A stretch of DNA of 64,000 nucleotides from a virus: positions 41,416-105,415 of IMG/VR virus record IMGVR_UViG_3300046750_000743; one strand, given 5' to 3'. Position numbers and translations under genes: made by a program. The notes under the pieces are model-generated. The model saw only the letters and a program-made list of their open reading frames with translations. It made no database searches and was not told the origin of the DNA. Every line of letters begins with the position of its first letter. The first letter of the stretch is position 1. Shown piece by piece: positions 2,462 to 62,426 of the stretch.

Positions 2462-2493
2462 ATGAGACAACTAACAGCATCACAGAAAATCGC
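2462..2493 (+). repeat. Shared 32-bp leader-coding repeat, copy 1
   Basis: These 32 bases are identical to the reverse complement of the first 32 coding bases of the genes starting at 57768 and 62426. They encode MRQLTASQKI plus two bases. Beyond this point the copy diverges at DNA level while still encoding the same amphipathic helix pattern. Confidence 0.85.
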
Positions 2494-3049
2494 CGTTCTT
2501 GAAAATAGGATCGCTCAACTTGAGAGGCAAGCATTTCTCTCCGATGTGAAAGAGAAGATCAAAGAGAAGATCGAAATCTTCAAGCGTGTGCAACGGGATG
2601 TCGCCTCAACGTTCAAAAGAGCAGGGTCTCCTAAAAAAATAGCCCAGAGTTACATAAAGGTGTCAAAGACACGCGAATACGAGCAGGCTATGAAAGAGCT
2701 CAGTGCTCAGGTAGGCCCTAATCCTATCAAGCAGGTGGAGTTCTTGATCAAAGCAAAGAAGAATCCAGAGATCGTCCTCGACAACCCTCTTGTCCGTAGA
2801 GCCTCTCTCCGCAAAAATGCAGGACTTATTTTCTTCCTTGGAAAAAATATCATTCGCCTAGCGACCTTCATACTAGGCTGTGTACTCAAATACCTGTTTA
2901 AGGTGATAGGGGTTAGAAAATCTGCATCGCACGATAAGGAAGCTGGCCTACTCGGAAGTCTCCTCTATGGAGTAGTGATGTTTGTTATTGGCTGGTTTGT
3001 AGGCAAGGAATATGACCTTAATATTAGCCTAGACAAGAAAGTAAGGTAG
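2462..3049 (+). CDS. MRQLTASQ-leader membrane protein, putative virion protein
   Basis: The protein starts with MRQLTASQKIA followed by a heptad-like helix ending in LERQA. The same leader opens the unrelated products at 57334-57768 and 61827-62426. The first 32 coding bases are identical to those genes. The ATG at 2462 follows AGAAAGGG; a GTG at 2438 is less likely. The middle is charged and helical, and two hydrophobic segments near residues 115-140 and 160-185 suggest a membrane hairpin. It carries the string DNPLVR, also seen in the coiled-coil protein at 50760-51698. I infer a virion protein whose leader directs packaging or protease processing. Confidence 0.6.
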   Translation: MRQLTASQKIAVLENRIAQLERQAFLSDVKEKIKEKIEIFKRVQRDVASTFKRAGSPKKIAQSYIKVSKTREYEQAMKELSAQVGPNPIKQVEFLIKAKKNPEIVLDNPLVRRASLRKNAGLIFFLGKNIIRLATFILGCVLKYLFKVIGVRKSASHDKEAGLLGSLLYGVVMFVIGWFVGKEYDLNISLDKKVR

Positions 3050-12635: not shown

Positions 12636-13151
12636 ATGAGATCAGAGTCTTGGGTTATCTTAGAAATAACCAGCAAGGGTGAAGAGGCAGTAGAGCAAGG
12701 CACTTTAAAAAGGTCTTTGCTTGAAGTGTCTCCTTTTAAAGAAGGGGACATCTTCATACCGATAGTCAAGCACGGAGGAAAACCCGTCTGGGTGATGGAG
12801 GGTTATATCTTCATCAAGTCAGGGTACGGTGCTTCTGACTACTTCGATCTTAGAAGAACGTACCTAATTCGGAATGTGGTTAGTCAGATAGATGAGTCAA
12901 CGGGTTTGATCTCAAAAGGAGTTATCAGTACCAGAGACCTCAACTCGATGCTGAAAAGAGCTGATGAACTAGGTGCTAGGTTTGATTTTGGAGACAAGGT
13001 TGCGATCAAGGACGGCGAATTCAAGGGTTTTGAAGCCACCGTCCTTGATCTCTTTGAGAAAGACAGTCTCAGGATGTACTCACTCCTTATAGACATGAGG
13101 AGTGTTGAAATAATAATAAGTGCAGACTGTCTGTCTGTAGAGAGTGTGTGA
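12636..13151 (+). CDS. NusG-like transcription elongation factor
   Basis: The first ~90 residues resemble a NusG N-terminal domain (starting ESWVILEITSKGEE, with VMEGYIFIKSGYG in the usual FPGYIFV position). Residues ~115-145 form a KOW-like motif (FDFGDKVAIKDGEFKGFEA). At 171 aa the length is near bacterial NusG or RfaH. NusG family proteins clamp RNA polymerase to increase processivity or antiterminate. It lies between a clamp-loader gene and a sigma-like HTH gene that begins 2 bp after its stop, making a plausible transcription-control pair. The domain call is from pattern; no alignment was run. Confidence 0.7.
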   Translation: MRSESWVILEITSKGEEAVEQGTLKRSLLEVSPFKEGDIFIPIVKHGGKPVWVMEGYIFIKSGYGASDYFDLRRTYLIRNVVSQIDESTGLISKGVISTRDLNSMLKRADELGARFDFGDKVAIKDGEFKGFEATVLDLFEKDSLRMYSLLIDMRSVEIIISADCLSVESV

Positions 13152-13152
13152 T

Positions 13153-13719
13153 ATGGACGCGAAGCTAATGGAAGAGATCTTCTCTAATGGACAAGGTCTT
13201 GACAGTCTGCCTTCTGCAAGCTTTGTAGCCCCCCATAAGGCATTACAGGTTCAGGAGATATTAGACCACATGAGCCACATATCTCCTATTGAGGCCGATA
13301 TGGTAGAGCTTCATCTCTTAAAAGGGGTGAGTCAGGCACTATTAGGCAAGATCTTCGGGTACACCCAGCCTAACATACACTACAGAATTAATCGGGGTAT
13401 AGACAGACTTAAAGTCTACTTGAAAATATCTTTATATACTGAGGAGGAACTCAGATCCCGACTGTCTGGGTTCTTTACAGAGAAGAAAGACATAGACGTG
13501 TTGGTCTATCTGTACCTGCACTCTAGTCAAAGCCATGTGGCTAGAATGCTAGGAGATACTCAAGGGAAGGTCAGGTATCGGTTCTTGAAGTGCATGGAGT
13601 CCTTATCTCAAGCTCCTAGCCTTGAAGACATTTACTTATCTATGAAGACCGTAGGGGACAACTTAACTTTGTTAAGGTGCGACTCAGATAAGGAACCGAG
13701 AAAAAGAGTTATACTATGA
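13153..13719 (+). CDS. Tandem sigma-region-4-like HTH protein
   Basis: Two helix-turn-helix units of sigma-70 region 4 type follow each other. The first, around residues 50-95, contains MVELHLLKGVSQALLGKIFG followed by TQPNIHYRINRGIDRL. The second, around 115-155, contains DVLVYLYLHSSQSHVARMLG followed by DTQGKVRYRFLKCMESL. There is no region 2, so it is not a full sigma factor. ATG 13153 is preferred over GTG 13144. It overlaps the next gene by ATGA. It could direct host RNA polymerase to phage promoters or repress, and is a candidate reader of the GTTnnTTTAT elements. Confidence 0.6.
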   Translation: MDAKLMEEIFSNGQGLDSLPSASFVAPHKALQVQEILDHMSHISPIEADMVELHLLKGVSQALLGKIFGYTQPNIHYRINRGIDRLKVYLKISLYTEEELRSRLSGFFTEKKDIDVLVYLYLHSSQSHVARMLGDTQGKVRYRFLKCMESLSQAPSLEDIYLSMKTVGDNLTLLRCDSDKEPRKRVIL

Positions 13720-17159: not shown

Positions 17160-18296
17160 ATGAAAGTCCACATACAAAATTACCAATCTCTAAAAGATGT
17201 TGAGTTCGAGGTTAAAGGACTCACCGTCATCACGGGTCAGAACAACACAGGAAAATCCGCCTGTGCAAGAGCCTTATGTGGTGTGTTCTCCAATGCCAGA
17301 GGGCATTCTCATGTAAGGGTCGGGGAGAAGCATTCTACCGTAAAAGTCACCTTTGATGATAATGGTGTCGTAGAGTGGAAGAAGGGCAAAGGCATCAATT
17401 CTTACTCTGTCAACGGGACGCTCATAGACAAGGTGGGATCATCTGTGCCAGATGAGGTCAAGGAACTTGGAGTAGTGGGCGTAGACGTGTCGGGAAAAGA
17501 GGTCTGGCCACAAGTCTCGAAGCAATTCGAGCAAGTATTCCTTTTAGACCTCCCTCCAAATGTTCTCTCTTCCGCTCTTTCGGATGTGGACAAGATCCAG
17601 ACCCTAGAAAAAGCTTCTGGCTTAGCTCGCTCTGATATTAAATCCCTAAAGTCAAAGATAAAATTCAAGAGGGAAGATCTTGAATTTGAGAGGGGTGTGG
17701 TGAAAGGGTTTGATGGGTTAGGGGAGGCTTCAGATCTTATCCTTGAGATAGGTCAGATAGAATCTGATATCCAAGACAGACAGGCTGAGATAGAGTCTTT
17801 AGAGAAAGTGGAGCGGTATAGAAGCCAATGGCTCTCTGAGATACAAGAATTATCTAAATGCTCTCAAGTGTATATCCCTGAGCTAAACCTCGACGGCTTT
17901 CAAAGACTCGATTTCTTGATTGGTCAGTTGAAGAAGAGGAGTGACGTGTCTGTCAAGATCATGGTTATTGGCGTAGGTTTAGAGAGCTACCCTGAAATCC
18001 CGAGCGACCTGCCTAACGAAGATCACGAGAAATATCAAAAAGTTCTCGACCACATGAGGGGGCTGAGAGCCTCTGTCTCTTTGCTAGAACCCCTTGAGCA
18101 GGTTGAGATACCCTCTCTCTCTGTCCCTGAAGACACGCTCCTCTCAGAAGCAGAAGAGAGGAGAGCACTAAACTCTGAAGTAGAGGCTATGGTTGAAGGA
18201 ATCTTTGAGATCACAAAAGAGGTTGAAGACTTAAAGTCTAACCTCACGGGAACTTGCCCTCTTTGCGACTCAGACCTTCTCAAACACTCTCATTAG
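17160..18296 (+). CDS. Half-length Rad50/SbcC-like ATPase ending at the zinc hook
   Basis: The N-terminal half of an SMC-like ATPase: IQNYQSLKDVEFEVKGLTVI, Walker A GQNNTGKS, a Q-loop region, and ~200 coiled-coil residues. It ends with a zinc-hook motif (GTCPLCDSDLLKHSH) and stops there. Full Rad50/SbcC continues with a second coiled coil, signature motif and Walker B; none of this follows here and none was seen elsewhere in the window. The 3' end instead overlaps the convergent helicase gene by 17 bp. AAAGGAGGAG precedes the ATG. It may work as a hook-dimerised protein, pair with a separate C-terminal subunit, or be truncated. Confidence 0.75.
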   Translation: MKVHIQNYQSLKDVEFEVKGLTVITGQNNTGKSACARALCGVFSNARGHSHVRVGEKHSTVKVTFDDNGVVEWKKGKGINSYSVNGTLIDKVGSSVPDEVKELGVVGVDVSGKEVWPQVSKQFEQVFLLDLPPNVLSSALSDVDKIQTLEKASGLARSDIKSLKSKIKFKREDLEFERGVVKGFDGLGEASDLILEIGQIESDIQDRQAEIESLEKVERYRSQWLSEIQELSKCSQVYIPELNLDGFQRLDFLIGQLKKRSDVSVKIMVIGVGLESYPEIPSDLPNEDHEKYQKVLDHMRGLRASVSLLEPLEQVEIPSLSVPEDTLLSEAEERRALNSEVEAMVEGIFEITKEVEDLKSNLTGTCPLCDSDLLKHSH

Positions 18297-23850: not shown

Positions 23851-23864
23851 AGTTGTTTTATATT
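23851..23864 (+). promoter_or_regulatory. Candidate late promoter element
   Basis: AGTTGTTTTATATT, 37 nt before the ATG at 23902, in the only real gap of this operon. A TAGTAA/TTACTA inverted repeat flanks the RBS and abuts the start codon. Confidence 0.5.
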
Positions 23865-26093: not shown

Positions 26094-26327
26094 GTGAAAA
26101 TCGCCCTTCAGGATAAAAAGGTTCTTAGTGCATTCTTAAAACGTTCTTCACATGAAGGGCGGGTGCTGGTCACAGACGGTGACGAGTTAAGAGGGGCATG
26201 GGGAGAAAGACCCCTTGTCGCTAAATGGGATAAGAAAGGCAAGCTCATTCAAATCCCTTCAAGTGACAAGGGCGTTCGTAAAGCCCAAGTCGCCCTGAGT
26301 TCCCTTCTGGAGAGAAGCTCGGTATGA
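26094..26327 (+). CDS. Hypothetical protein (77 aa)
   Basis: GTG start at 26094 after GGGAGACACAAACG. Small basic protein without recognised domain. Its stop overlaps the next start by ATGA, so the two are coupled. Confidence 0.5.
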   Translation: MKIALQDKKVLSAFLKRSSHEGRVLVTDGDELRGAWGERPLVAKWDKKGKLIQIPSSDKGVRKAQVALSSLLERSSV

Positions 26328-26578
26328 ATGTTGAACCCGAGCCTCTTTACAAGACCTCAGATCTGTACTTTGCCGCGTACTTAAAAGTAGTAGGCATGGA
26401 GCTATTAAAGACTGAGCTTGAAGGGCGTAAGGTGGTCTTCGTCTTCGAGAAGAAGTCCTCTTTTAAAGATCTTAAGAGAGAGTTCTTCAACAGAACGTCA
26501 AGAGTGATCGCTTTGAGCTATGTCGATGAGATCAGGTCTCTCAAAGCCTTGACCTATATGGCGAGGGAAGAATCTTAA
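26324..26578 (+). CDS. DUF5659-like small phage protein
   Basis: The 84-aa product follows the DUF5659 pattern: YKTSDLYFAAYLKVVGMELL, a VVFVFE strand, a FFNRTSRVIALSYVDEIRSL segment and KALTYM at the end. These proteins are common beside phage structural genes, function unknown. Ends one base before the late element and hairpin that control the next gene. Confidence 0.65.
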   Translation: MNVEPEPLYKTSDLYFAAYLKVVGMELLKTELEGRKVVFVFEKKSSFKDLKREFFNRTSRVIALSYVDEIRSLKALTYMAREES

Positions 26579-26579
26579 T

Positions 26580-26593
26580 ATTCATTTTATAAC
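26580..26593 (+). promoter_or_regulatory. Candidate late promoter overlapping an RBS hairpin
   Basis: ATTCATTTTATAAC, 46 nt before the ATG at 26640. Its 3' end overlaps the left arm of the 17-bp inverted repeat at 26591-26639. Confidence 0.5.
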
Positions 26594-26639
26594 CCCCCTC
26601 CTTCATAAATACATATAATACATATGAAGGAGGGGGGTT
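26591..26639 (+). promoter_or_regulatory. Perfect 17-bp hairpin burying an RBS
   Basis: The left arm 26591-26607 is fully complementary to the right arm 26623-26639, with a 15-nt A/T-rich loop. The right arm contains the GGAGGGGGG ribosome-binding site and abuts the ATG at 26640. No T-run follows, so it is not a standard terminator. Read-through RNA would fold and hide the RBS; RNA starting just after the late element would lack part of the left arm. Confidence 0.85.
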
Positions 26640-26993
26640 ATGATTGCGTACTATTCTCAAGCAGAGGTCTCTGAGTCGCACCCTTGTCAAGTATCTTGGA
26701 TAGGTCAAGATAGCAAACCCATTCAAGTTGCTAATGTCACCGCGACATTATTTAAGTATCAAGGTGTCGTAAGGACAGTGATCACAGGCCCAGTTGCCAT
26801 GCAACAGACAGATCAAGATCATAGGTTCATCACTAAGATTACAATTCCTAATGATGTCGAAGGGCAAACTCTCTTTGTTGAGTACGTCGCTAATCTTGTA
26901 GGGGACGAATCTGAGGTCAAAGCGGAACAAACCATTTCTGTTAAAAAAGCTGTCGCCTCATCCTCAGTCAACAACATCATCTCGGTGATTTAA
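26640..26993 (+). CDS. Putative beta-sandwich virion protein
   Basis: 117 aa with alternating hydrophobic residues (TATLFKYQGVV, TLFVEYVANLV) suggesting an Ig-like fold, and no membrane segment. Family not recognised. Translation is predicted to be controlled by the hairpin immediately upstream. One base separates its stop from the next start, so the two virion-type genes are coupled. Confidence 0.5.
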   Translation: MIAYYSQAEVSESHPCQVSWIGQDSKPIQVANVTATLFKYQGVVRTVITGPVAMQQTDQDHRFITKITIPNDVEGQTLFVEYVANLVGDESEVKAEQTISVKKAVASSSVNNIISVI

Positions 26994-26994
26994 A

Positions 26995-27315
26995 ATGCCT
27001 GTATATACTCAAGGGCAACAGTTAGGCCCTAATGATTTATACATCATGCTGTATGACCAGAGTGGTGGTGCTTTTGACCCTTACGTCATCTACTATGAAT
27101 TCCATGCTAAAGACCATGCTAGAGGTCAATGGAGAGTAGGGCAGGGTGGTAGAGTGCCATTTCAAGATCAATCTGGAATCTACTACGTCTCGGAGAGGTT
27201 GTCCGCTGGGTTTATCCCAGGAGACTACTACATCATGTGGTTAATCAAAAAGTATGAGAACTCTCCTCTCGAAGTTGTTAAAAAACAAGAATTCGCATTC
27301 GTAGGGTACTTGTAA
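26995..27315 (+). CDS. Putative minor virion protein
   Basis: 106 aa: NDLYIMLYDQSGGAFDPYVI followed by YYEFHAKD, then a beta-rich stretch ending GDYYIMWLIKKYENSP. I have a sense of similar short proteins lying among phage neck or tail genes, but cannot name a family. TAATG overlap joins it to the lipoprotein gene. Confidence 0.45.
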   Translation: MPVYTQGQQLGPNDLYIMLYDQSGGAFDPYVIYYEFHAKDHARGQWRVGQGGRVPFQDQSGIYYVSERLSAGFIPGDYYIMWLIKKYENSPLEVVKKQEFAFVGYL

Positions 27316-27525: not shown

Positions 27526-28413
27526 ATGAAAGTCCCCACTGAAGTCACGATGAAAGAACGTTATCTAGCAATCGTCTTGCTAGATATAATTGGGTCTACC
27601 GCATTCGTTCAAAAGAATGGTGCCCATGTGTCGGCTCAGTGGTTTCAGGTTCATGATAGGCTCGCACGGTCTTTAATCTATAAACATGACGGTCGAGAAA
27701 TAGACCGAAGTGACGGGTTCTTACTTTCTTTTAACAGGACTGTTGATGCCGTCAACTTTGCTCTCAGCTATCAGAGGACAGTTCCAAAGAAGACTCGGCT
27801 GACTACCCGTATAGGCATCCATTGGGGTCGGATCATAGAGGTGCAACAAGATGAACTCTTCGTCGGTGCTGGTGCTAAAAGGATTGAACTAGAGGGCTTA
27901 GCTAAAAACATAGCGGCTCGAACTATGAGCCTCTGCCAAGCAGGTCAAGTTCTGTTGACGAAAGAAGCATTTGTCAACATTAAGAGTAGAACTAATACCC
28001 GTACCCCTAAGGACACTCGATATGCCTGCGTTGGTATGTATCGCTTCAAAGGGGTGAGCACCCCGCAGGAGGTTTACGCAGTTGGGCAGAGTGTGGAATC
28101 TCTTCAGCCCCCTCCAAGTTCTGAGAAAGTCAAAAGGCTGGGTGGCCCGAAGTATATAAAGAAAAGAGCTAGAGATAGGGAATTCCTAGATTGGGTAAAT
28201 TGGGTCATATGGAGAGCTGGGGTAATCTCTCTTATCGTGATTCTATATGTCCTATTTCAAATATCTGTTAGACCCATGTCAAGAATATTAATAGGGCTTC
28301 CTTATACTATGCCCATCTATGACAGCGTCGTAGATTACGTCTCAGAGTCTTACGATTTTGTTAAAAAAGACCTGCAGAAAAGAATAGGATTTAGCGATGA
28401 ACCAGACAAATAA
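27526..28413 (+). CDS. Class III nucleotide-cyclase homologue with C-terminal membrane anchor
   Basis: Residues ~12-185 match the class III adenylate/guanylate cyclase fold: LLDIIGSTAF with metal-binding D20, SDGFLLSF with second metal D63, TTRIGIHWGRI, transition-state pair in KNIAARTMS (N and R kept), and RFKGVSTPQEVYAVG at the end. The canonical base-selecting Lys and Asp are not at their usual positions, so product (cAMP, cGMP, a cyclic pyrimidine, or none) cannot be predicted. One transmembrane segment follows at ~225-245. Membrane-associated in the host; the next gene, a coiled-coil membrane protein, overlaps it by 17 bp. Confidence 0.75.
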   Translation: MKVPTEVTMKERYLAIVLLDIIGSTAFVQKNGAHVSAQWFQVHDRLARSLIYKHDGREIDRSDGFLLSFNRTVDAVNFALSYQRTVPKKTRLTTRIGIHWGRIIEVQQDELFVGAGAKRIELEGLAKNIAARTMSLCQAGQVLLTKEAFVNIKSRTNTRTPKDTRYACVGMYRFKGVSTPQEVYAVGQSVESLQPPPSSEKVKRLGGPKYIKKRARDREFLDWVNWVIWRAGVISLIVILYVLFQISVRPMSRILIGLPYTMPIYDSVVDYVSESYDFVKKDLQKRIGFSDEPDK

Positions 28414-38364: not shown

Positions 38365-38402
38365 TATCGAGATACGGCATGGACTATAGATTCAATGCTC
38401 AT
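38364..38402 (-). CDS. Possible 12-codon leader ORF
   Basis: MSIESIVHAVSR, preceded by AAAGGAGG at ideal spacing. Both its RBS and start codon lie within the right arm of the inverted repeat at 38398-38461. It could be a leader peptide whose translation opens the downstream ORFs. Confidence 0.3.
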   Translation of the reverse strand: MSIESIVHAVSR

Positions 38403-38461
38403 CGAGCCTCCTTTAAATAAGTTTGTGTGTTGACACTTATAAAAAAAAGAGGCTCGATGAG
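38398..38461 (-). promoter_or_regulatory. Perfect 13-bp inverted repeat around a late-type element
   Basis: GAGGCTCGATGAG (38449-38461) and CTCATCGAGCCTC (38398-38410) are perfect complements, separated by 38 nt. The loop carries minus-strand TTTTTTTTATAAG at 38436-38448, resembling the late element. The second arm contains RBS and ATG of the leader ORF. Immediately follows the stop of the upstream gene. Confidence 0.7.
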
Positions 38462-38464
38462 GTT

Positions 38465-39328
38465 TTAAAACTGCGTACCCTGTAAGGTGTAAGTGATGCC
38501 TTTGTACTTAATGACATTCCACTTTCTCTGAGGATAGGGGACTCTAAAAGGATCTCCAAGATATTCTTTTGAGTTATACTTACTCTTCTTGAAGTTCTTC
38601 TCTCTAAGCACAAGACTCCTGCGGTTTACTTTCAAGACTTCGTACCAATAAAGAACATCAAATCCATGAGGGTCTTTTTTAAAGAAGATGTCTCCCTCCA
38701 CGATAGGTCTCTTCTTAGGTATGATGCCTTTTCCTTCTATGCCCTCGGGTGCATACTTTCTAAATAGCTCTTCTGCTCTATCAGAGTCTTCCATCTCACG
38801 CATTAGGTGCTTAATACGCCTCATAGAGTCTCGCCCGCTCATATTTTTTCTATGGTCATCACTCATCGCGTAATACCAATCGTGGCCCTTGAGTGCTCTT
38901 ACCAGCTCTTCCTCTAACCTCTCTTGCGGATCTTGCATGAGAGTTTTATTCACTTGAACATAGTGATCTTTGACAGCTTGAATGCCAGCCTGGCGAGCAC
39001 CCTTGATGGTCTTTTCGGTCTTTTCGGCCCGCAAAGGTCCTGGTCGTCCCTCATGGTCATATACGTGAGTGACGAAATCCCAAGAGCCATTGTAACGTCG
39101 CCATTTATTAGATATCCCGAAGACTTCCATTTTGTTTATGTAAGGGAAGACACTGATATAGAAAGGAGAATCGGGATCTTGAGAGTACCTAGAGATAGAG
39201 CCATTTTTGTATATGATGGCAACCTCTTCAAGGTGTCGGATCTCTCCCCATTTACGGAGGACTCCACCCAAAATCTTGAAGGTGGGCGAGATCGAGAGCT
39301 TTCTCTTAGTGTTATATAGCTTTCTCAT
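38465..39328 (-). CDS. Hypothetical phage protein (287 aa)
   Basis: No named family. The N-terminal ~90 residues are basic and beta-rich; the middle has KGHDWYYAMSDDHRKNMSGR, a motif I associate with uncharacterised phage proteins; the C-terminal third is beta-rich and basic (FKKSKYNSKEYLGDPFRVP). GAGGGGAG precedes the ATG. Virion association is inferred from position. Confidence 0.5.
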   Translation of the reverse strand: MRKLYNTKRKLSISPTFKILGGVLRKWGEIRHLEEVAIIYKNGSISRYSQDPDSPFYISVFPYINKMEVFGISNKWRRYNGSWDFVTHVYDHEGRPGPLRAEKTEKTIKGARQAGIQAVKDHYVQVNKTLMQDPQERLEEELVRALKGHDWYYAMSDDHRKNMSGRDSMRRIKHLMREMEDSDRAEELFRKYAPEGIEGKGIIPKKRPIVEGDIFFKKDPHGFDVLYWYEVLKVNRRSLVLREKNFKKSKYNSKEYLGDPFRVPYPQRKWNVIKYKGITYTLQGTQF

Positions 39329-51762: not shown

Positions 51763-54700
51763 TCAGCCACCCTGAAGAGTAAAGGTGAATTGAATATAGA
51801 GGAGGGGGTACACGGGCTTGTAGAAGACCTCCACGTTCAATTGGGTTGGGTCTTCGGGATCTCGACGAACACTCAAGCCTGTGTAGGTTGAGATGATCTG
51901 GTCTCGGACGAGTTGCTTCAAGAAAGCGTTCAAACGACCCTCAATCTGCTGTATGACCTGAGGTACGTACTTCACACCGATGTACCTACTCAAGAGGTTA
52001 CGAGATCGAATCTGAACGTCATCTGCGATCTGGATAACCGTAGGGGTCTTAGTGAGAGTAGAAGTCATGTTTGTGGTCAAACCATGTCTGACCTTGATAC
52101 CGTCCGCTCTCTGACTTATAACAGTCACACCCGCTTTAGCTGTCGCGTTCGCGTCAACCTCATCAAGAGTTCTTGAAAGTGAAGAAAGACCATTGATTAC
52201 ACGACCCGTCCAAGGGGTCGCACTGTCTACACTAGGGTTGCTTGTAGCAAGAGCGACACCCACCGCAACATATTCACCGCCGACGAGGAAGCTCTGACTG
52301 ACTCCCACGTCGTTTATGAAAGTAAGAGTGGCGATGTCAGGGTAAACAATGCAAACTCTTGAGTTTCCTGTTGCTTGTGCGAGAAGCTGAACTTCTCTTG
52401 GCTGAGTGCCAGGTTTTACGCCAACAACAGCACGACGCTCTGAACGATAACGAAGTGAAGACTGAATGTCACAATGGTTAGAGATTGCGGAGAGGATTGC
52501 TGATGTCGCAGGATAAACAGGCACAATCACAGAAGGTGAAAGACCTGGTGTGATCTCACCTTCAACACCAGAAATTGCCGAGATGACTTGATCCTCGGTA
52601 GCAATACTCTGACCCTTCGCGAGAGGGATCTGCCTACAAGCAATTGCAGAAGCACCATTAGCAAACGCGAGGTAAGCACCCAAGCTCAAAGAGTTCTCTG
52701 GACTCAGAGGCCCATAGGTGGCTACCACGTCTCCGAGAGAGGTGAAGGTACGAGTGTTAAAGAGTGATCTAACACGGGTGAAGTCAACATAGTAGGTCTG
52801 ACCTATAGAAGGCTCAGAACCACTCTTAACAAAAGTCTCTACGAGAGCAATGTCTCCTGCCTGTGTGTTGAGTGTGTTAGACACAGTGAGTTCAACACCT
52901 TGTATGAGAGACACAGGAATATTAGCGTCGGTTGTCAGGGTAGTGGATACGCTGAAGAGAACTCTTGCGTTGACACCTGTAGGGTATGACAAACCACCTT
53001 CTCTTGCGAGGAGGGAGAAGGTGAGGCCTGTTACTGAATCAATATAAGTCTGTCCTACAACACCATCTGAGCCAGAACCGTCGTTGAGGCGTGAGTCATT
53101 AGCTGACCCCGAACCCTTCGGGTTATCGGAAGTGACCACAAACCCTTGATACGCATTCTCTCCGACAGCTCCGTCGCCTACGGTGATCTTCGTACCACTT
53201 CCTCTAGTTGTAGCAACACGACCCCCTGTAACTTCAAGGATAGAGCTGGTACTAGTTGAGAGACTCTCGAAACCAACAAAACTACGACCTGTTTGGTTTA
53301 CGTGGAGGTAAGACACAGCTTTCTCTGCGTAGTGACCCGCGATTGCGTCTGTGCTTGGCTCAATAGAGAAGAGAGCAGTTGCGAAAGAGGCCTTCGCAAC
53401 AACATCACTCATAAGAGCTGAGGTCAAAGCTTGGGCGGTGACACCTACAGAAGAAACAGACTCACCCTCAGTTAAACCGAAAGATGAATTACCGTTACCT
53501 GCACCAACTCTAATATAGGAATCAATGTTAGAGTTTGCATTGATAACACGGATGCCCGCACCCTCAATGTGAGCAGTGGCATTTACACCTACCGCGATTA
53601 CTACATCATCAAGGATATCTGTAATTGAAGTGAGATTACCTTGAGCCGTAGCATCTGATAAATTGATAGTGACAGTACTACCGTCAATCTCAAGAACAAG
53701 AGTGTCATTCTGGTCATTGCCAGCACTGTACAGTGTCTTTGCAGGAATACCAAGAGCGTCTACATCACCCCAACCCAAACGAAGGAGGACACTTGGGGCA
53801 TCAACTACAGATCTTCTTGAAGCAACAGCGGAGTCGCCAGCACTGAGGCCAGCATCTTCGACCCGCACACCCTGATCAACAGATACACCTAGATCTGATG
53901 TTGGGAAGTACTTGTTACCTATAACAGTCCTACCTTTAAGAATCAAGCGGTCACGGAGCTCGCCTGAAGTAAGGGTGGTGCGTGAGTGTGCCGCGACAGG
54001 GAGGAAACCAAACTTAGTCTGAGTGCCGTTGCCATTCGTGGTTGCGTTCTGAGTATCGAAGTCTACGCCTGCAATACTGAGGAACGTATCTTCAGTATCT
54101 GCGATGAACTCAATAAATCCGTATGAGTCGTTAGCGTTTGGAAGAGAATCCAAACTAAATACTAAACGGCCCGTGTTATCCGCAGAGCAACTGAGATCAA
54201 GACCTGTAAAGTCTGCGTTTGCACCAACGATGTCTGCGGTGATTGCATTAGTAATCGCCACGCCAACAGCGTTAGCGAGGTCGTCGGGGCTGAGGTAAAC
54301 AGCCGCACCAATCGTGGCAGAGGCTACGGCAGAAGCACCATTCGAGTCGCCGACGAAACGGAACTTGAAGCCAGCATATGAATTTGCCTTCGCTTCCCAA
54401 GCAGAGAAGCTAGACATGGCTGTGTAAACAGGTGCAGAAGCGTTCGCTGCTGTGTTGATAGCACCGACCCAAGTCTCAACATCGTCACCTACGCCGTTAA
54501 TAGAAGCTTCTGCGAGAGTTACGCCATCCACAGTGAGAGTGACCGCTCTTGTTAATGCTGTCGCACCGTAGTTAGTGTTGTTGCTCGCAACGTCATACGT
54601 AAGTAAGTCACTTACAAGAGTCGCAATGTGACCGTTACGACCAGCACCCATAGGGGCAGAGAAGTCAATCGTGATTGCCTGAAGGTCTGCCTCAATAGCA

Positions 54701-56574
54701 AGAGTGTCTGAAGCACCCTCGACGAGGAAGTAGTCTCCGAAGCCTTCGGTGAAGAAGATCGCAGGAGTCTCGTCGTAACTACGAAGCTCAACGGTGACAT
54801 TCTCCGCCACAGGGGTGCCTCCTATAACTCTAGCACCTGACATGGACTCAGACCCTGAAGGGAAGTTCAAGGCGATTTCACTAAGGTCTGTACCTTTGTC
54901 TTCAAGAGTCACGTTATAAAGAGTCTCGTTTAAAGACTTAACAGAGTAAGTGCCAACTCCAGAAGCTCCCGCAGACTCAACCTCGACTCGATACGCTTTA
55001 TCTCCGAACTTGTCTTGAATATTGGAGTAGTAGAAGCTCGCAAACACCTTATGGTTCGCAGGGATATCAGAGGCGAGAGTTACCTGTGAAGTCTGAGGGT
55101 CAACCTTAGTCACAACTGCAAGAGGGTTGACAAGGGCGTCTGAGAGGGAGACTCCTGTCCTCACTGTGACAAGATCAGCTCTGTTAGTGGCTTTCCCTGC
55201 ACCAGATCCGTCAACGGGCTGGAAGGGGAGTTTAAAGACGTTTTGGAGGACTCTAGGAGGGACGGCATTCGTAATTACAGAAGAACACTCTAAAAGATAG
55301 GCTCTCTCATCTCGGAGAGTTGGAGACACTTGGTTGTTGCCGAAAGGGGTCTGGCCATTCTGTACTGCACCCGCAGAGGCAACTGTCGCTGTACCCCAGA
55401 CAATCTTGTCGTCTGAGAGTACAAAGTCCACGTCTTCGACAAACAAGGCCGCTGAGCCACCGCCTGATGCGACAAGAGAAACTCTGTCGATGGAGGTGAT
55501 GTCACGACCCGACACGTAGTCGAACTGATCTCTGAAAGTATTGTGGTAGTAGTCAACACTAATGACAGTACCTACTTTAGGGGGGAGTGCGAGGGTGATA
55601 GCGTTCGTTGAACCGTCTACAGACTCAACCGCTACAATTACCCCGTCAACCCTAACGGTCACATTGTCAGTGGAGGTAGTAATAACTCCACTGTTTGTTC
55701 CGTCTACAATAGGGCCATACTGAGTAAAGAACGTGCGGGTGCGTTCATTGCCTGTCTGGTTCAAGTAAACACCGATAGTGGTGTTAGCTGTGCCGTTACC
55801 TACAAGGATCGACCCCTCTGCTGTCAGGATGAGGTTGTCGCCACCTTCCGTGTCTTTGTAGGAGTCTGCTTCGAGAGAAGCAAGCCCTGCACCATTAATG
55901 GTTGCGATGACACGCTGGAGGGAGTTCGCTCGATCACCCTGAGCTCCGTTAGGGAGTGTGATAACACCTGTCACACCATCTACAGTTAAGATAAGAGTGT
56001 TAGAGGTATTGTCGATCACGAAGGGGGAACTACTTCCGAGAAGTTCTGTGTCGAAAGGAGACACCTGACTAGAAAGGTTTTCCTCTTCTACGAAAGTGTC
56101 CGTGCGGTTGAAGAAGTAAGAAACTCTTACGTCGTCTCCTTGCTTAGGGGCTTCCGCGATAGTAAGAACTCCTTCAGCACCATCAACTGCGAGAACGACA
56201 GTGTTAATGCCGTTGATGCTCACGGTAACAGAAGAAGGAACCGTAGCGTTAGTCCCAGACCCGTCACCCGTGACGATAGGCCATTTCCTGACCTGAAGTT
56301 GGTTTGTCTCGCCGTCGAAGTCCTGATAGGTGTAACTCCCATCGGGATTCTCTCCTGCAACCATTCTGCCTGATGGATCTTCTTCTACGATCCGTTGATC
56401 AACCACAGCAGACGAGCCTCTTACGAGGAGACTGCCCTTGCTCTCGATGGTCTGGCGACCTGTGCCGATTAAGGTAGGCACCCTGCCTTGCAGTCGAGCT
56501 TGGTTTTGGTTTTGATTCCCAAATACGGTGCTTGTGTAAACACCTGGTGGTAGGTAACTATTTTCTATAGCCAT
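51763..56574 (-). CDS. Contractile tail sheath protein, very large
   Basis: Start MAIENSYLPPGVYTSTVFGN and end VFYKPVYPLLYIQFTFTLQG match tail-sheath termini, and the RYIGVKYVPQVIQQIEGRLN followed by AFLKQLVRDQ segment is the sheath C-terminal helix. At 1603 aa it is two to three times the usual 480-700 aa. The extra mass includes at least three Ig-like repeats (DGVxxV...ITLALPPKVG, VDYYHNTFRDQFDY; related VRVSYFFNRTDTF and VFASFYYSNIQDKF) and long Ala/Thr-rich beta domains, likely projecting from the sheath surface. Establishes the myovirus type. AAGGAGTAGTCAG precedes the ATG. Confidence 0.88.
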   Translation of the reverse strand: MAIENSYLPPGVYTSTVFGNQNQNQARLQGRVPTLIGTGRQTIESKGSLLVRGSSAVVDQRIVEEDPSGRMVAGENPDGSYTYQDFDGETNQLQVRKWPIVTGDGSGTNATVPSSVTVSINGINTVVLAVDGAEGVLTIAEAPKQGDDVRVSYFFNRTDTFVEEENLSSQVSPFDTELLGSSSPFVIDNTSNTLILTVDGVTGVITLPNGAQGDRANSLQRVIATINGAGLASLEADSYKDTEGGDNLILTAEGSILVGNGTANTTIGVYLNQTGNERTRTFFTQYGPIVDGTNSGVITTSTDNVTVRVDGVIVAVESVDGSTNAITLALPPKVGTVISVDYYHNTFRDQFDYVSGRDITSIDRVSLVASGGGSAALFVEDVDFVLSDDKIVWGTATVASAGAVQNGQTPFGNNQVSPTLRDERAYLLECSSVITNAVPPRVLQNVFKLPFQPVDGSGAGKATNRADLVTVRTGVSLSDALVNPLAVVTKVDPQTSQVTLASDIPANHKVFASFYYSNIQDKFGDKAYRVEVESAGASGVGTYSVKSLNETLYNVTLEDKGTDLSEIALNFPSGSESMSGARVIGGTPVAENVTVELRSYDETPAIFFTEGFGDYFLVEGASDTLAIEADLQAITIDFSAPMGAGRNGHIATLVSDLLTYDVASNNTNYGATALTRAVTLTVDGVTLAEASINGVGDDVETWVGAINTAANASAPVYTAMSSFSAWEAKANSYAGFKFRFVGDSNGASAVASATIGAAVYLSPDDLANAVGVAITNAITADIVGANADFTGLDLSCSADNTGRLVFSLDSLPNANDSYGFIEFIADTEDTFLSIAGVDFDTQNATTNGNGTQTKFGFLPVAAHSRTTLTSGELRDRLILKGRTVIGNKYFPTSDLGVSVDQGVRVEDAGLSAGDSAVASRRSVVDAPSVLLRLGWGDVDALGIPAKTLYSAGNDQNDTLVLEIDGSTVTINLSDATAQGNLTSITDILDDVVIAVGVNATAHIEGAGIRVINANSNIDSYIRVGAGNGNSSFGLTEGESVSSVGVTAQALTSALMSDVVAKASFATALFSIEPSTDAIAGHYAEKAVSYLHVNQTGRSFVGFESLSTSTSSILEVTGGRVATTRGSGTKITVGDGAVGENAYQGFVVTSDNPKGSGSANDSRLNDGSGSDGVVGQTYIDSVTGLTFSLLAREGGLSYPTGVNARVLFSVSTTLTTDANIPVSLIQGVELTVSNTLNTQAGDIALVETFVKSGSEPSIGQTYYVDFTRVRSLFNTRTFTSLGDVVATYGPLSPENSLSLGAYLAFANGASAIACRQIPLAKGQSIATEDQVISAISGVEGEITPGLSPSVIVPVYPATSAILSAISNHCDIQSSLRYRSERRAVVGVKPGTQPREVQLLAQATGNSRVCIVYPDIATLTFINDVGVSQSFLVGGEYVAVGVALATSNPSVDSATPWTGRVINGLSSLSRTLDEVDANATAKAGVTVISQRADGIKVRHGLTTNMTSTLTKTPTVIQIADDVQIRSRNLLSRYIGVKYVPQVIQQIEGRLNAFLKQLVRDQIISTYTGLSVRRDPEDPTQLNVEVFYKPVYPLLYIQFTFTLQGG

Positions 56575-57076: not shown

Positions 57077-57358
57077 ATGGAAGAACTACTCCTACTAGAA
57101 CCGCGAGAGATCTTTAATGACATGATCATAGGGGTTTCCTACGAACCCTTTGCTGTCGTTTATGACAAAGATCAGGTCGTTGAATATTGGGCGGGGGAGA
57201 TGTCGAAAAAAAACCCAGAACTCAAAGAAAATGAAAAATACCACATGGCGTTAGAGTACCTTGAGTTCAACACCCATAGGGGAGACCACACACCTATTTT
57301 CGTGTCCCCGCAAGACAGAGAGATACTTTTGGATCAAATCTCTGAGGAGTCAACATAG
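57077..57358 (+). CDS. Hypothetical acidic protein (93 aa)
   Basis: ATG after GAGGTTACG. Small acidic protein with aromatic strands (MIIGVSYEPFAVVYDKDQVV) and EYLEFNTHRGDHTPIFVS; no family recognised. Diverges from the zinc-ribbon gene and overlaps the convergent MRQLTASQ gene by 25 bp. Confidence 0.5.
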   Translation: MEELLLLEPREIFNDMIIGVSYEPFAVVYDKDQVVEYWAGEMSKKNPELKENEKYHMALEYLEFNTHRGDHTPIFVSPQDREILLDQISEEST

Positions 57359-57768
57359 AGGTCGATAGAACTATCTGTTTTAAGGTTAAACCTTACACTC
57401 TCAAGAAGCTCTCGTACAGAAGATTGAGAATCTGCGGTGAAATACTCAACATTGCCGAGTTCAACAAAGCCCGTAGAGTTTCTCATGAAAGCGACCAAGC
57501 GGTTTCTTGTCTTTCTTACGAAAACCTTTGTGAGAACCTCACGCCCTCGAAGTAGGTTGAAGAATGCTGTTACTGTTTTGCCTCTTTTTTGTTTGCGGAT
57601 GGTAGAAGACTTGGCGTTAAACCTAGCATTGACCATGAGGGCAACATCTTCTGCCGCTGATGCGACGACCTCGAGGTTCAAGGAGTCAAATCGACTAGCA
57701 GATTTTTCAAGTCTGGCGATACGGTGTTCAAGTTGAGCGATTTTCTGTGATGCTGTTAGTTGTCTCAT
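57334..57768 (-). CDS. MRQLTASQ-leader protein, putative virion protein
   Basis: 144 aa. Residues 1-24 are the shared leader MRQLTASQKIAQLEHRIARL followed by EKSA; the remainder is beta-rich (KTVTAFFNLLRGREVLTKVF, FVELGNVEYF) with a helix (SVRELLESVRFN). I infer that the leader is a capsid-targeting or cleavable propeptide. GAAAGGATTTGTCCT precedes the ATG. Not recognised otherwise. Confidence 0.6.
   Translation of the reverse strand: MRQLTASQKIAQLEHRIARLEKSASRFDSLNLEVVASAAEDVALMVNARFNAKSSTIRKQKRGKTVTAFFNLLRGREVLTKVFVRKTRNRLVAFMRNSTGFVELGNVEYFTADSQSSVRELLESVRFNLKTDSSIDLYVDSSEI
57716..57768 (-). repeat. Shared leader-coding repeat, copy 2 (53 bp)
   Basis: All 53 bases are identical to 62374-62426; the first 32 coding bases also match 2462-2493. 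The rest of the two genes is unrelated at sequence level. Confidence 0.95.
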
Positions 57769-60542: not shown

Positions 60543-61313
60543 TTGAAAACTTTAATTAGTTTATTTTCGGGGGCGGGAGGGATGGATATCGGATTTCATG
60601 CAGCAGGCTTTCAGACTCTTGTTGCAGTAGAACAAGATCACTCTTGTTGTGAGACGCTAAGACTGAATATGCCAAATGTACCTGTTATAGAAGGTGATAT
60701 TTCAGGGATCACGACTGAAGAAATTTTACGGACGGCAGGAGTAAAGCCTCTAGACATAGACGTAGTTATAGGCGGGCCTCCTTGCCAAAGCTTTAGCTTA
60801 GCAGGGGATCGGATGGGGATGGATGACCCAAGGGGGCTTCTTTTACTAGAGTATATTCGAGTGGTTAGAGAAGCTTTGCCAAAGGTATTTGTAATGGAAA
60901 ATGTAAAAGGGATGGTAAATTGGTCAAAAGGTAGAGCAAAGGATGCAATAGTAAGTGGGATGAGCGAGCCAATCTTATATGATGATATTGAATATAGTTA
61001 TGAGCTAAGTTTTCAAGTTTTAAATTCCGCACATTTTGGGGCCCCGCAGTTCAGAGAGAGATTCTTTATTGTCGGTAATAGAATAAATCAGGTATTTGAG
61101 TTCCCAAAGGCTACTCACGGCATTACAGAATCGTCTGAATTAGTCGCGAGGGGGCAGATAACCTTGTTTAATGCATTTTCAGAAAGTACCCTTTTGCCCT
61201 ACACGACAGTCGGAGATGCGATTGGCTCACTGTCCGACGCTAGCCCCCCTTCTGAAAATGCATTAAAGATTTCTAAAACTATCAAAGATAGGATTAAAAA
61301 ACATGGACACTAA
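60543..61313 (+). CDS. C5-cytosine methyltransferase, N-terminal part
   Basis: Motifs I-VIII of a DNA cytosine-5 methyltransferase: LFSGAGGMD (SAM binding), GGPPCQSFS with nucleophile C81, VMENVKGM (E119), and APQFRERFFIVG (QxRxR). The target-recognition end and motifs IX-X are missing and are encoded by the next gene in another frame, with an 11-bp overlap. The start codon is TTG or the ATG inside (GAACGCTTGAAAAC, with M as first residue). The gene is visibly AT-richer than its neighbours and uses TTA codons, suggesting recent acquisition. No cognate restriction enzyme is seen. Confidence 0.85.
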   Translation: MKTLISLFSGAGGMDIGFHAAGFQTLVAVEQDHSCCETLRLNMPNVPVIEGDISGITTEEILRTAGVKPLDIDVVIGGPPCQSFSLAGDRMGMDDPRGLLLLEYIRVVREALPKVFVMENVKGMVNWSKGRAKDAIVSGMSEPILYDDIEYSYELSFQVLNSAHFGAPQFRERFFIVGNRINQVFEFPKATHGITESSELVARGQITLFNAFSESTLLPYTTVGDAIGSLSDASPPSENALKISKTIKDRIKKHGH

Positions 61314-61722
61314 ACTTAAAAACCACGAGAAAACCGCTCATGCTCCTAGTACGATAAAAAAGATTAAACTTGTAGAACAAGGGAAAAAGCTTTCAGATAT
61401 TACGAAAACTTTTGGGTCTACATATAGACGATTAGATCCAAATAAGCCTTCTCCGACTGTTACTAGAAGTGGCTATAGGGACTTCATTCATCCTAATTAC
61501 GATAGAATGCTTACAGTCCGCGAATTGGCCTGTTTGCAAACATTCCCATTAGATTGGGAGTTCGTCGGAACACGCTTAGATTCATATAGTAGTAAAAGAA
61601 AAGTTTCGATGACTCAATTTGGGCAAGTAGGTAACGCAGTACCTCCTATCCTTGCTCAGGCCGTTGCAAGATCGGTTTTAGATATTTTAATTAAGGACGA
61701 AGAAATCTCGAAATCCATATAG
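61303..61722 (+). CDS. C5-cytosine methyltransferase, C-terminal part
   Basis: Carries the C-terminal portion: FGSTYRRLDPNKPSPTVTRS (motif IX-like), LTVRELACLQTFP, and motif X GQVGNAVPPILAQAVARS. Starts by ATG 11 bp before the first part's stop, in the +1 frame. Either a two-subunit enzyme, as known for M.AquI, or a single gene broken by frameshift. Its last residues (DEEISKSI) are encoded by sequence that aligns with the DUF458 gene, so its 3' end appears fused to that remnant. Confidence 0.8.
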   Translation: MDTKLKNHEKTAHAPSTIKKIKLVEQGKKLSDITKTFGSTYRRLDPNKPSPTVTRSGYRDFIHPNYDRMLTVRELACLQTFPLDWEFVGTRLDSYSSKRKVSMTQFGQVGNAVPPILAQAVARSVLDILIKDEEISKSI

Positions 61723-61826: not shown

Positions 61827-62426
61827 TCAGATATGCTCGTCTTCATGTGTTTCGAGAAAATCTCTAGTGTAGTCTTCGATCTCTCTCCCCAGCTCTCTAA
61901 ACTCCGTCTTGAGAGCCTTTAGGGTATGCTTCCAAGCCAAGCCGTTTTTGATGTCTCTAATATTCTTGAGGTGAAATGCTTTCTTCCCATCCATGTAGAC
62001 GGTGAAAGAAGGATCTTTACCTCTGATCTTGCTGCCGAGGCTCCTCTCGTCAAAGACGATAGTTAGGTCAAGATCTATATTCGCACCCCGCCACATATCG
62101 ACCGTAAACTTGTTCGCACTTAGTGACTTGACATCCCTCTCATGGCTATCATGGTAAGAGCCGATAGCCCCCTCGTATTTGTTATCAGGGGCGTGTTCGT
62201 ATTTGAATTCATAGTCTCGGCCCAATTGTCTAGAAATCTGAAAAGGGAGTATCTGGTCTATTAGCCATTGCTCGTACCCTTTGCTAATGTCTTGATGTAT
62301 CGCCTTGTGAATCTCTTTAGCTCGTCTCATATTGCTCTTGAAAATACCAATTAAGGCCTGCTTCTCAAGATGAGCGATACGGTGTTCAAGTTGAGCGATT
62401 TTCTGTGATGCTGTTAGTTGTCTCAT
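61827..62426 (-). CDS. MRQLTASQ-leader protein, paralogue of 1868-2410
   Basis: 199 aa. Leader MRQLTASQKIAQLEHRIAHL, EKQA, then a domain paralogous to the product of 1868-2410 (SKGYEQWLIDQ, DIKNGLAWK, REIEDYTRDF), which lacks the leader. So the leader is a separable module added to different bodies. RBS AAGGAGGTC before the ATG pairs with its own 5' leader. Putative internal or virion protein. Confidence 0.6.
   Translation of the reverse strand: MRQLTASQKIAQLEHRIAHLEKQALIGIFKSNMRRAKEIHKAIHQDISKGYEQWLIDQILPFQISRQLGRDYEFKYEHAPDNKYEGAIGSYHDSHERDVKSLSANKFTVDMWRGANIDLDLTIVFDERSLGSKIRGKDPSFTVYMDGKKAFHLKNIRDIKNGLAWKHTLKALKTEFRELGREIEDYTRDFLETHEDEHI
62374..62426 (-). repeat. Shared leader-coding repeat, copy 3 (53 bp)
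   Basis: Identical to 57716-57768 over all 53 bases; encodes the same 17 residues. Confidence 0.95.

Follow-up and report, generated by a model that had tools for sequence, protein, structure and literature searches.

Phage genomes are densely packed, and transcriptional read-through from one gene into the next is common. How, then, might a gene stay silent on RNA that arrives from an upstream neighbor and still be expressed from a promoter of its own? Gene 26640 of an uncultured virus poses this question. It lies within the 64,000-nt stretch of DNA that we analyzed (hereafter the window; bases 41416–105415 of the 105-kb virus record G000), 61 nt behind a co-directional DUF5659 gene with no terminator between the two, so that read-through RNA presumably originates from the DUF5659 gene.

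Tail-sheath and capsid searches place the phage among the huge uncultured tailed phages, and the capsid search revealed >500 IMG/VR stretches that encode the same capsid protein type. The best record in the phage collection that we searched is LR745208.1 (an uncultured huge phage of 485 kb, without annotation), whose tail sheath is 39% identical over its full length. No relative of the 26640 protein was found in this collection, and searches among isolated phages recovered neither DNA nor protein closely related to the locus. Our comparison records were G002 (312 kb), G003 (376 kb), G004 (227 kb), G009 (290 kb), G018 (316 kb), and G020 (196 kb), while the contigs L003/L004 and G001 (177 kb), being near-identical to G000, were treated with it as one lineage.

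The start codon of 26640 is correct, as its orthologues align from the first residue. Pfam and PHROGs returned no match for the gene; its product is predicted to form an Ig-like beta sandwich (pLDDT 84), with structure matches to phage baseplate proteins, a BppU-domain protein, a phage G protein, and many generic Ig folds, and our guess from this model is a virion or baseplate protein.

A long perfect hairpin buries the ribosome-binding site of 26640

The original prediction for this locus described perfectly complementary arms (26591–26607 and 26623–26639) that hide the ribosome-binding site (RBS). Both points held, and the stem proved longer than described: 19 contiguous Watson–Crick pairs (26589–26607/26623–26641, 100%), which U-G and U-A pairs at the foot extend to 26587/26643, i.e., 21 bp. 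Consequently, the Shine–Dalgarno (SD) sequence and the entire AUG (26640–26642) are buried in the stem (Table 1). The minimum free energy was approximately −35 kcal/mol for the hairpin alone and −38.3 in context, compared with −17.6 ± 3.0 for shuffled sequences (z = −6.85; 0 of 200 shuffles equally stable), and the longest perfect arms reached 19 bp, compared with 10–12 bp in six dinucleotide-shuffled windows. We therefore rejected a chance origin, since both stem length and stability fall far outside the shuffles. Membership in a known Rfam family was likewise rejected, the only hits being microRNA hairpin models with sub-threshold scores of 20–28 bits (60–171 needed). In RNA that starts upstream and reads through, the computed unpaired values were 0.00 for the SD and 0.01 for the AUG.

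Table 1. Features at and around gene 26640 (positions within the window)
Feature	Position	Strand	Remarks
Same-type motif, AGTTGTTTTATA	23851..23862	+	Before upstream gene 23902; possible source of same-class read-through RNA
Upstream co-directional gene	26324..26578	+	DUF5659
Promoter-like element, TTAATATTCATTTTATA	26575..26591	+	12 of 15 defined positions of TTnATAGTTTnTTTATA; 10.7 bits
TTTATA core	26586..26591	+	Within promoter-like element
Left arm	26587..26607	+	19 Watson–Crick pairs from 26589, plus U-A and U-G at foot; overlaps promoter-like element
Loop, 15 nt	26608..26622	+	Contains TATAAT (26614–26619)
Right arm	26623..26643	+	Holds SD and AUG
Shine–Dalgarno AAGGAGG	26627..26633	+	Sequence
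Gene 26640, putatively hairpin-controlled	26640..26993	+	117 aa
Next gene in unit	26995..27315	+	106 aa; accompanies 26640 in other lineages even with a different upstream neighbor

A promoter-like element overlaps the left arm

A late-type element, ATTCATTTTATAAC at 26580–26593, had also been proposed to overlap the left arm. The overlap was borne out and the element fits a phage promoter-like motif, while its label "late" is best treated as tentative, since we found this motif before presumed virion genes and also before a helicase gene. The 14-mer as such shows no enrichment in the window (with ≤3 mismatches allowed, 7 matches versus 6 expected), and the promoter motif emerged only from upstream regions. 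Specifically, we seeded an EM motif search with TTTATA and ran it over the sequences 5′ of genes; it arrived at AGTTTT ahead of TTTATA in roughly half of those from G000 and G002. Runs on individual genomes recovered this core in G000, G002, G003, and G009; G018 gave a block, ACAAGTGTTTATA, that differs from it but is related. Together, 238 aligned matches from the phage and its relatives yielded one contiguous 17-nt block, TTnATAGTTTnTTTATA, which normally lies ~30–55 nt before starts, with the TTTATA core peaking at −50 to −31. The site before 26640 scores among the better motif sites of this phage.

In base composition, a purine peak appears 14 nt after TTTATA (R, 77%), which is only suggestive of a start-site marker and here would correspond to ~26606; if the TATA of TTTATA is taken as the reference, spacing as in T4 would give a start near 26600–26602. 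As for the polymerase, no RNA polymerase beta subunit (PF00562) was recognizable in the eight records, and a protein with weak similarity to sigma-70 region 4 (13144–13719) is conserved in seven of the eight (82% identity in G002). These two observations make it plausible that, as in T4, a phage factor redirects the host polymerase. Beside the sigma-region-4-like gene, 12636–13151 encodes a perhaps NusG-like protein whose C-terminus carries a KOW motif.

The arrangement points to probable insulation from read-through

The explanation that we consider probable is that the hairpin occludes the RBS of 26640 with a left arm encoded in the gene's own promoter DNA, such that only locally started RNA is translated. 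RNA reading through from upstream genes would contain both arms and fold, hiding the SD and AUG and leaving 26640 untranslated, while RNA from the local promoter, expected to start at ~26600–26606, would begin inside or after the left arm, lack the full stem, and be translated. Gene 26640 would in this way be insulated from upstream transcription, and its expression would also be timed if the promoter is a late one. Promoter activity and class, as well as the consequence for translation, are steps that we infer.

The original prediction went further and proposed a temporal switch from silent read-through RNA to active late mRNA. Translational insulation from read-through, rather than such a switch, is the safer claim. 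Judging from their motifs, the upstream and local promoters may both be of one class, and given the motif before 23902 in the upstream unit, silence of the read-through RNA may hold at all times, which would amount to insulation and not timing.

Hairpins of different sequence precede the orthologues of 26640

A search for orthologues of 26640 recovered them in G002 (65%), G003, G004, and G009, with weak matches in G018 and G020, and a profile search found 13 orthologue loci. The genes downstream of the orthologues remain the same across lineages. In the window, 27526–28413 encodes a product that combines an adenylate/guanylate cyclase-like domain (PF00211, E = 5e-5) with apparent hydrophobic segments at its C-terminus and is conserved downstream of the orthologue in L118.

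We found the RBSs of orthologues hidden as well, by hairpins whose sequences differ from one another, the strongest occurring in three lineages. The G002 orthologue has TATCATTAGACTTCT-aaaaa-GGAGGTCTAATGATA (15 bp, p < 0.001), with SD and AUG buried; that in L118 has TGATGATCTCCTC/GAGGAGATCATCA (13 bp, p < 0.001), with AGTCTATTTATA in the loop; that in L111 has TATCACCTTC/GGAGGTGATA (10 bp, p = 0.011); and that in L117 has a 9-bp stem (p = 0.049). At the other G003-like loci, values ranged from p = 0.05 to clearly non-significant, most stems being weak, and the stem of the L119 (G009) orthologue was non-significant by the contiguous-stem measure. The upstream neighbor in the G003-like group is a divergent recA (directly seen in L118), an arrangement in which little selection against read-through would be expected, and the weak stems of this group fit relaxed selection in the absence of read-through.

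Covariation in related phages, which the original prediction named as a check, was found: the arms before the 26640 orthologues differ and nevertheless pair, and the same is true of the sibling stems before other genes in G003/G004 and G018/G020 described below.

SD-hiding stems recur across the genomes of related phages

For each SD-bearing gene (called with a simple custom gene caller), we recorded the strongest uninterrupted stem covering the SD. The scan took contiguous stems only, and the null consisted of dinucleotide shuffles with the SD kept in place, which does not model SD-bearing divergent neighbors. Several tests were devised after viewing the same data, and their p-values are uncorrected. 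The anti-SD hexamer CTCCTT showed an initial excess upstream of genes (32 versus 8.4 expected); this excess partly reflects the SDs of divergent neighbors, and the later tests therefore split co-directional from divergent genes.

Among 541 co-directional genes of five related phages, 37 had SD-covering stems with a score of at least 24, compared with 2.2 in shuffles, while the 330 divergent genes of the same five phages gave 9 compared with 0.8; the excess differs between the two groups (Fisher p = 0.008). The centers of the right arms concentrated within 20 nt 5′ of the start codon (75 versus 3.3 expected), with a low background elsewhere. Examples of sibling hairpins, which illustrate the promoter link described below, are agtctcTTTATAACCCCTTAGGTGGAT...ATTCACCTAAGGGGTTATAAATG in G009 (L172:1208), agttttttTATTGGCTCTCCAT...ATGGAGAGCCAATATG in G003 (L156:16704), and agtctaTTTATATCTCC...GGAGATATAGAATG in G002 (L126:14061). 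Compensatory changes are seen between G003 and G004 (CTTGCTCC.../...GGAGCAAG versus CTTACTCC.../...GGAGTAAG), and a comparison of G018 with G020 shows several orthologues that retain a hairpin in new sequence while others have lost it. What is selected here is the RNA pairing and not a common DNA sequence. Within the window itself, the region upstream of 17160–18296 holds a further stem that hides an SD, CTCCTCCTT/AAGGAGGAG; its loop contains GGTATAAT, and no TTTATA lies nearby.

Whether this clade of huge phages stores anti-SD sequence in promoter DNA at several percent of its co-directional genes is, in our estimate, evenly balanced. If it does, translation of these genes would depend on the site at which their RNA began, and this clade-wide use would be an independently evolved, genome-wide version of what T4 does at a handful of genes.

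Left arms are associated with the promoter motif

Next, we asked how the left arms lie relative to the promoter motif. T[TC]TAT occurred in the left arm or ≤20 nt upstream of it in 51 of 94 hairpins, compared with 25.5 ± 4.2 for hairpin-free genes at matching positions, and approximately half of the hairpins had no TTTAT near the arm. The arm started ≤8 nt from the end of TTTATA in 24 cases, versus 16.8 when promoter positions were permuted (p = 0.014), and the fraction of the arm upstream of TTTATA+6 was 0.70 versus 0.55 (p = 0.005). These two position tests are firmer than that for arms spanning the 3′ edge of TTTATA, which was borderline (16 versus 11.1, p = 0.052).

Computed folding gave a corresponding picture. 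For 29 co-directional genes with both promoter and hairpin, the median SD accessibility was 0.003 in read-through RNA and 0.41, 0.53, and 0.48 in RNA starting 6, 9, and 14 nt after TTTATA, respectively. In comparison, the values for 75 hairpin-free promoter genes were 0.37 for upstream RNA and 0.50 for local RNA.

These data bear on the best surviving alternative, an unlikely one in our view, in which the leader hairpin also forms in locally started RNA and expression stays damped until a factor, a ribosome, or an RNA chaperone opens the stem. Gene 26640 itself lends it some credit, as 16 nt of the left arm lie 3′ of TTTATA and a start 6–9 nt after that core leaves a 7- to 10-bp stem with the SD mostly closed; at 26598 (6 nt after TTTATA), for example, a 10-bp stem still covers the SD, with a computed accessibility of 0.04. 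The computed thresholds at this locus are starts at or beyond ~26596 for a free AUG and only from ~26602 for a free SD. Moreover, several sibling hairpins have their entire left arm downstream of TTTATA, for which release would need a start ~14 nt after it. However, the arm sequences differ among the genes of one phage, which makes a single recognizing regulator unlikely, promoter-started RNA mostly has an SD just as accessible as in hairpin-free genes, and the left arms cluster at the promoter motif.

A second alternative keeps the same switch logic and takes the TATAAT in the loop as the functional promoter, with a start at ~26626 and a minimal leader. The hexamer is perfect, and T4 hairpins (regB, alc, etc.) have TATAAT-like sequences in or beside the loop. 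It has no −35 partner, however, the promoter scan makes no call there, and sibling loops show no excess of −10-like hexamers (8 versus 8.5 and 4 versus 4.6 expected), so that we rejected such hexamers as a general promoter and consider this reading of the 26640 loop very improbable. We rate marginally lower still the possibility that a GC-rich, long, perfect stem between two genes serves as a transcription terminator or an RNase III processing site between two transcription units: an intrinsic terminator was rejected, as the stem has no T-run on either strand and the terminator scan calls none, the start codon lies within the stem end, and the right arms target the SD specifically throughout the clade. 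Least probable of all is a DNA-level palindrome (an operator, recombination, or replication element), which would suit a perfect inverted repeat overlapping a promoter-like element but not orthologues whose arm sequence is wholly changed with pairing and SD coverage kept, nor the enrichment of inverted repeats at the SD and far less elsewhere upstream.

If RBS occlusion by a promoter-encoded left arm operates as we propose, a gene needs no terminator to stay unaffected by upstream transcription. Since the start must fall within or downstream of the left arm, such hairpins would also bracket start sites and offer a sequence-only route to promoters in uncultured phages that lack RNA data.

Relation to phage T4 and other known systems

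The T4 late promoter box is TATAAATA, read by gp55, and the motif of the 26640 phage (TTnATAGTTTnTTTATA) does not conform to it. Passages of T4 reviews describe RBS-sequestering hairpins that overlap a late promoter at e, soc, 49, and I-TevI, in which the SD and/or AUG lies in the 3′ arm and the 5′ arm in or adjoining the local promoter, such that only locally started RNA is translated and late genes can lie behind early transcription units (PMC3014915, PMC2988022). The precedent of e and soc, to which the original prediction appealed, is thus correct and includes I-TevI (PMC3014915, PMC2988022). Like these three genes, 26640 has its SD and AUG sequestered in read-through RNA, as computed, and a 5′ arm overlapping a phage promoter-like motif, at the level of sequence only. 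It differs in belonging to an unrelated huge phage with another promoter block and apparently many more such genes, and its stem is longer than those of T4, with the AUG completely buried. A promoter flanking an RBS hairpin on the 5′ side, within a co-directional unit, is also described for mobE of phage Aeh1 and segB of T4 (PMC2988022). These are homing endonucleases, whereas the 26640 product is not an endonuclease and is predicted to be Ig-like and possibly a virion protein.

As a control, we scanned 150 kb of T4, which recovered e, I-TevI, and I-TevII (7 stems versus 0.35 at ≥24). The scan also revealed strong SD-hiding stems at regB, alc, alt.-3, modB, denV, and nrdC.8 (L219–L221), whose left arms lie directly downstream of GTTTAC (early-promoter-like) sequences; these six genes are not given as hairpin-regulated in the relevant passages of the T4 reviews (PMC3014915, PMC2988022). 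Phage G and phiKZ (50 kb each) had one or two SD-hiding stems. In phage G, a 20-bp stem, AAAAGCCTTCTTATAATATA/TATATTATGAGGAGGCTTTT, hides the SD of an RNA ligase gene (L222 2283).

The logic of the mechanism is known from a few T4 genes; in the related huge phages, dozens of genes seem to follow it. We found no earlier report of the pattern in huge phages in the open-access PubMed Central literature, though one may exist elsewhere. Occurrence of the layout at dozens of genes, in phages that are not related to T4, suggests a general solution and not a T4 curiosity.

Other features of the window

An N-terminal tag, e.g., MRRSASEVIRNLExRIARLEKQA (MRQLTASQKIAQLEHRIARLEK here), is shared in each phage by ~4 to 25 proteins that otherwise differ. 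Carriers include 2462–3049, 57334–57768, and 61827–62426 of the window and many genes in G002, G003, and G009, and the tag is possibly a capsid-targeting propeptide. The idea that hairpin genes mostly belong to this "RIARLE" family was rejected, the enrichment being only modest (15/72 versus 76/846, p = 0.003, uncorrected).

On the (−) strand, 38391–38468 contains a 24-nt inverted repeat (83%) with a T8 run after the 5′ arm, while the 3′ arm has AAAGGAGG and the ATG of a 12-codon ORF. A DNA cytosine methyltransferase-like gene (60543–61722) is present in two overlapping frames and contains an 18-bp perfect inverted repeat (61167–61267). Finally, 51763–56574 encodes an unusually large tail sheath protein of 1603 aa, in which the recognized sheath domain covers the C-terminal part only.
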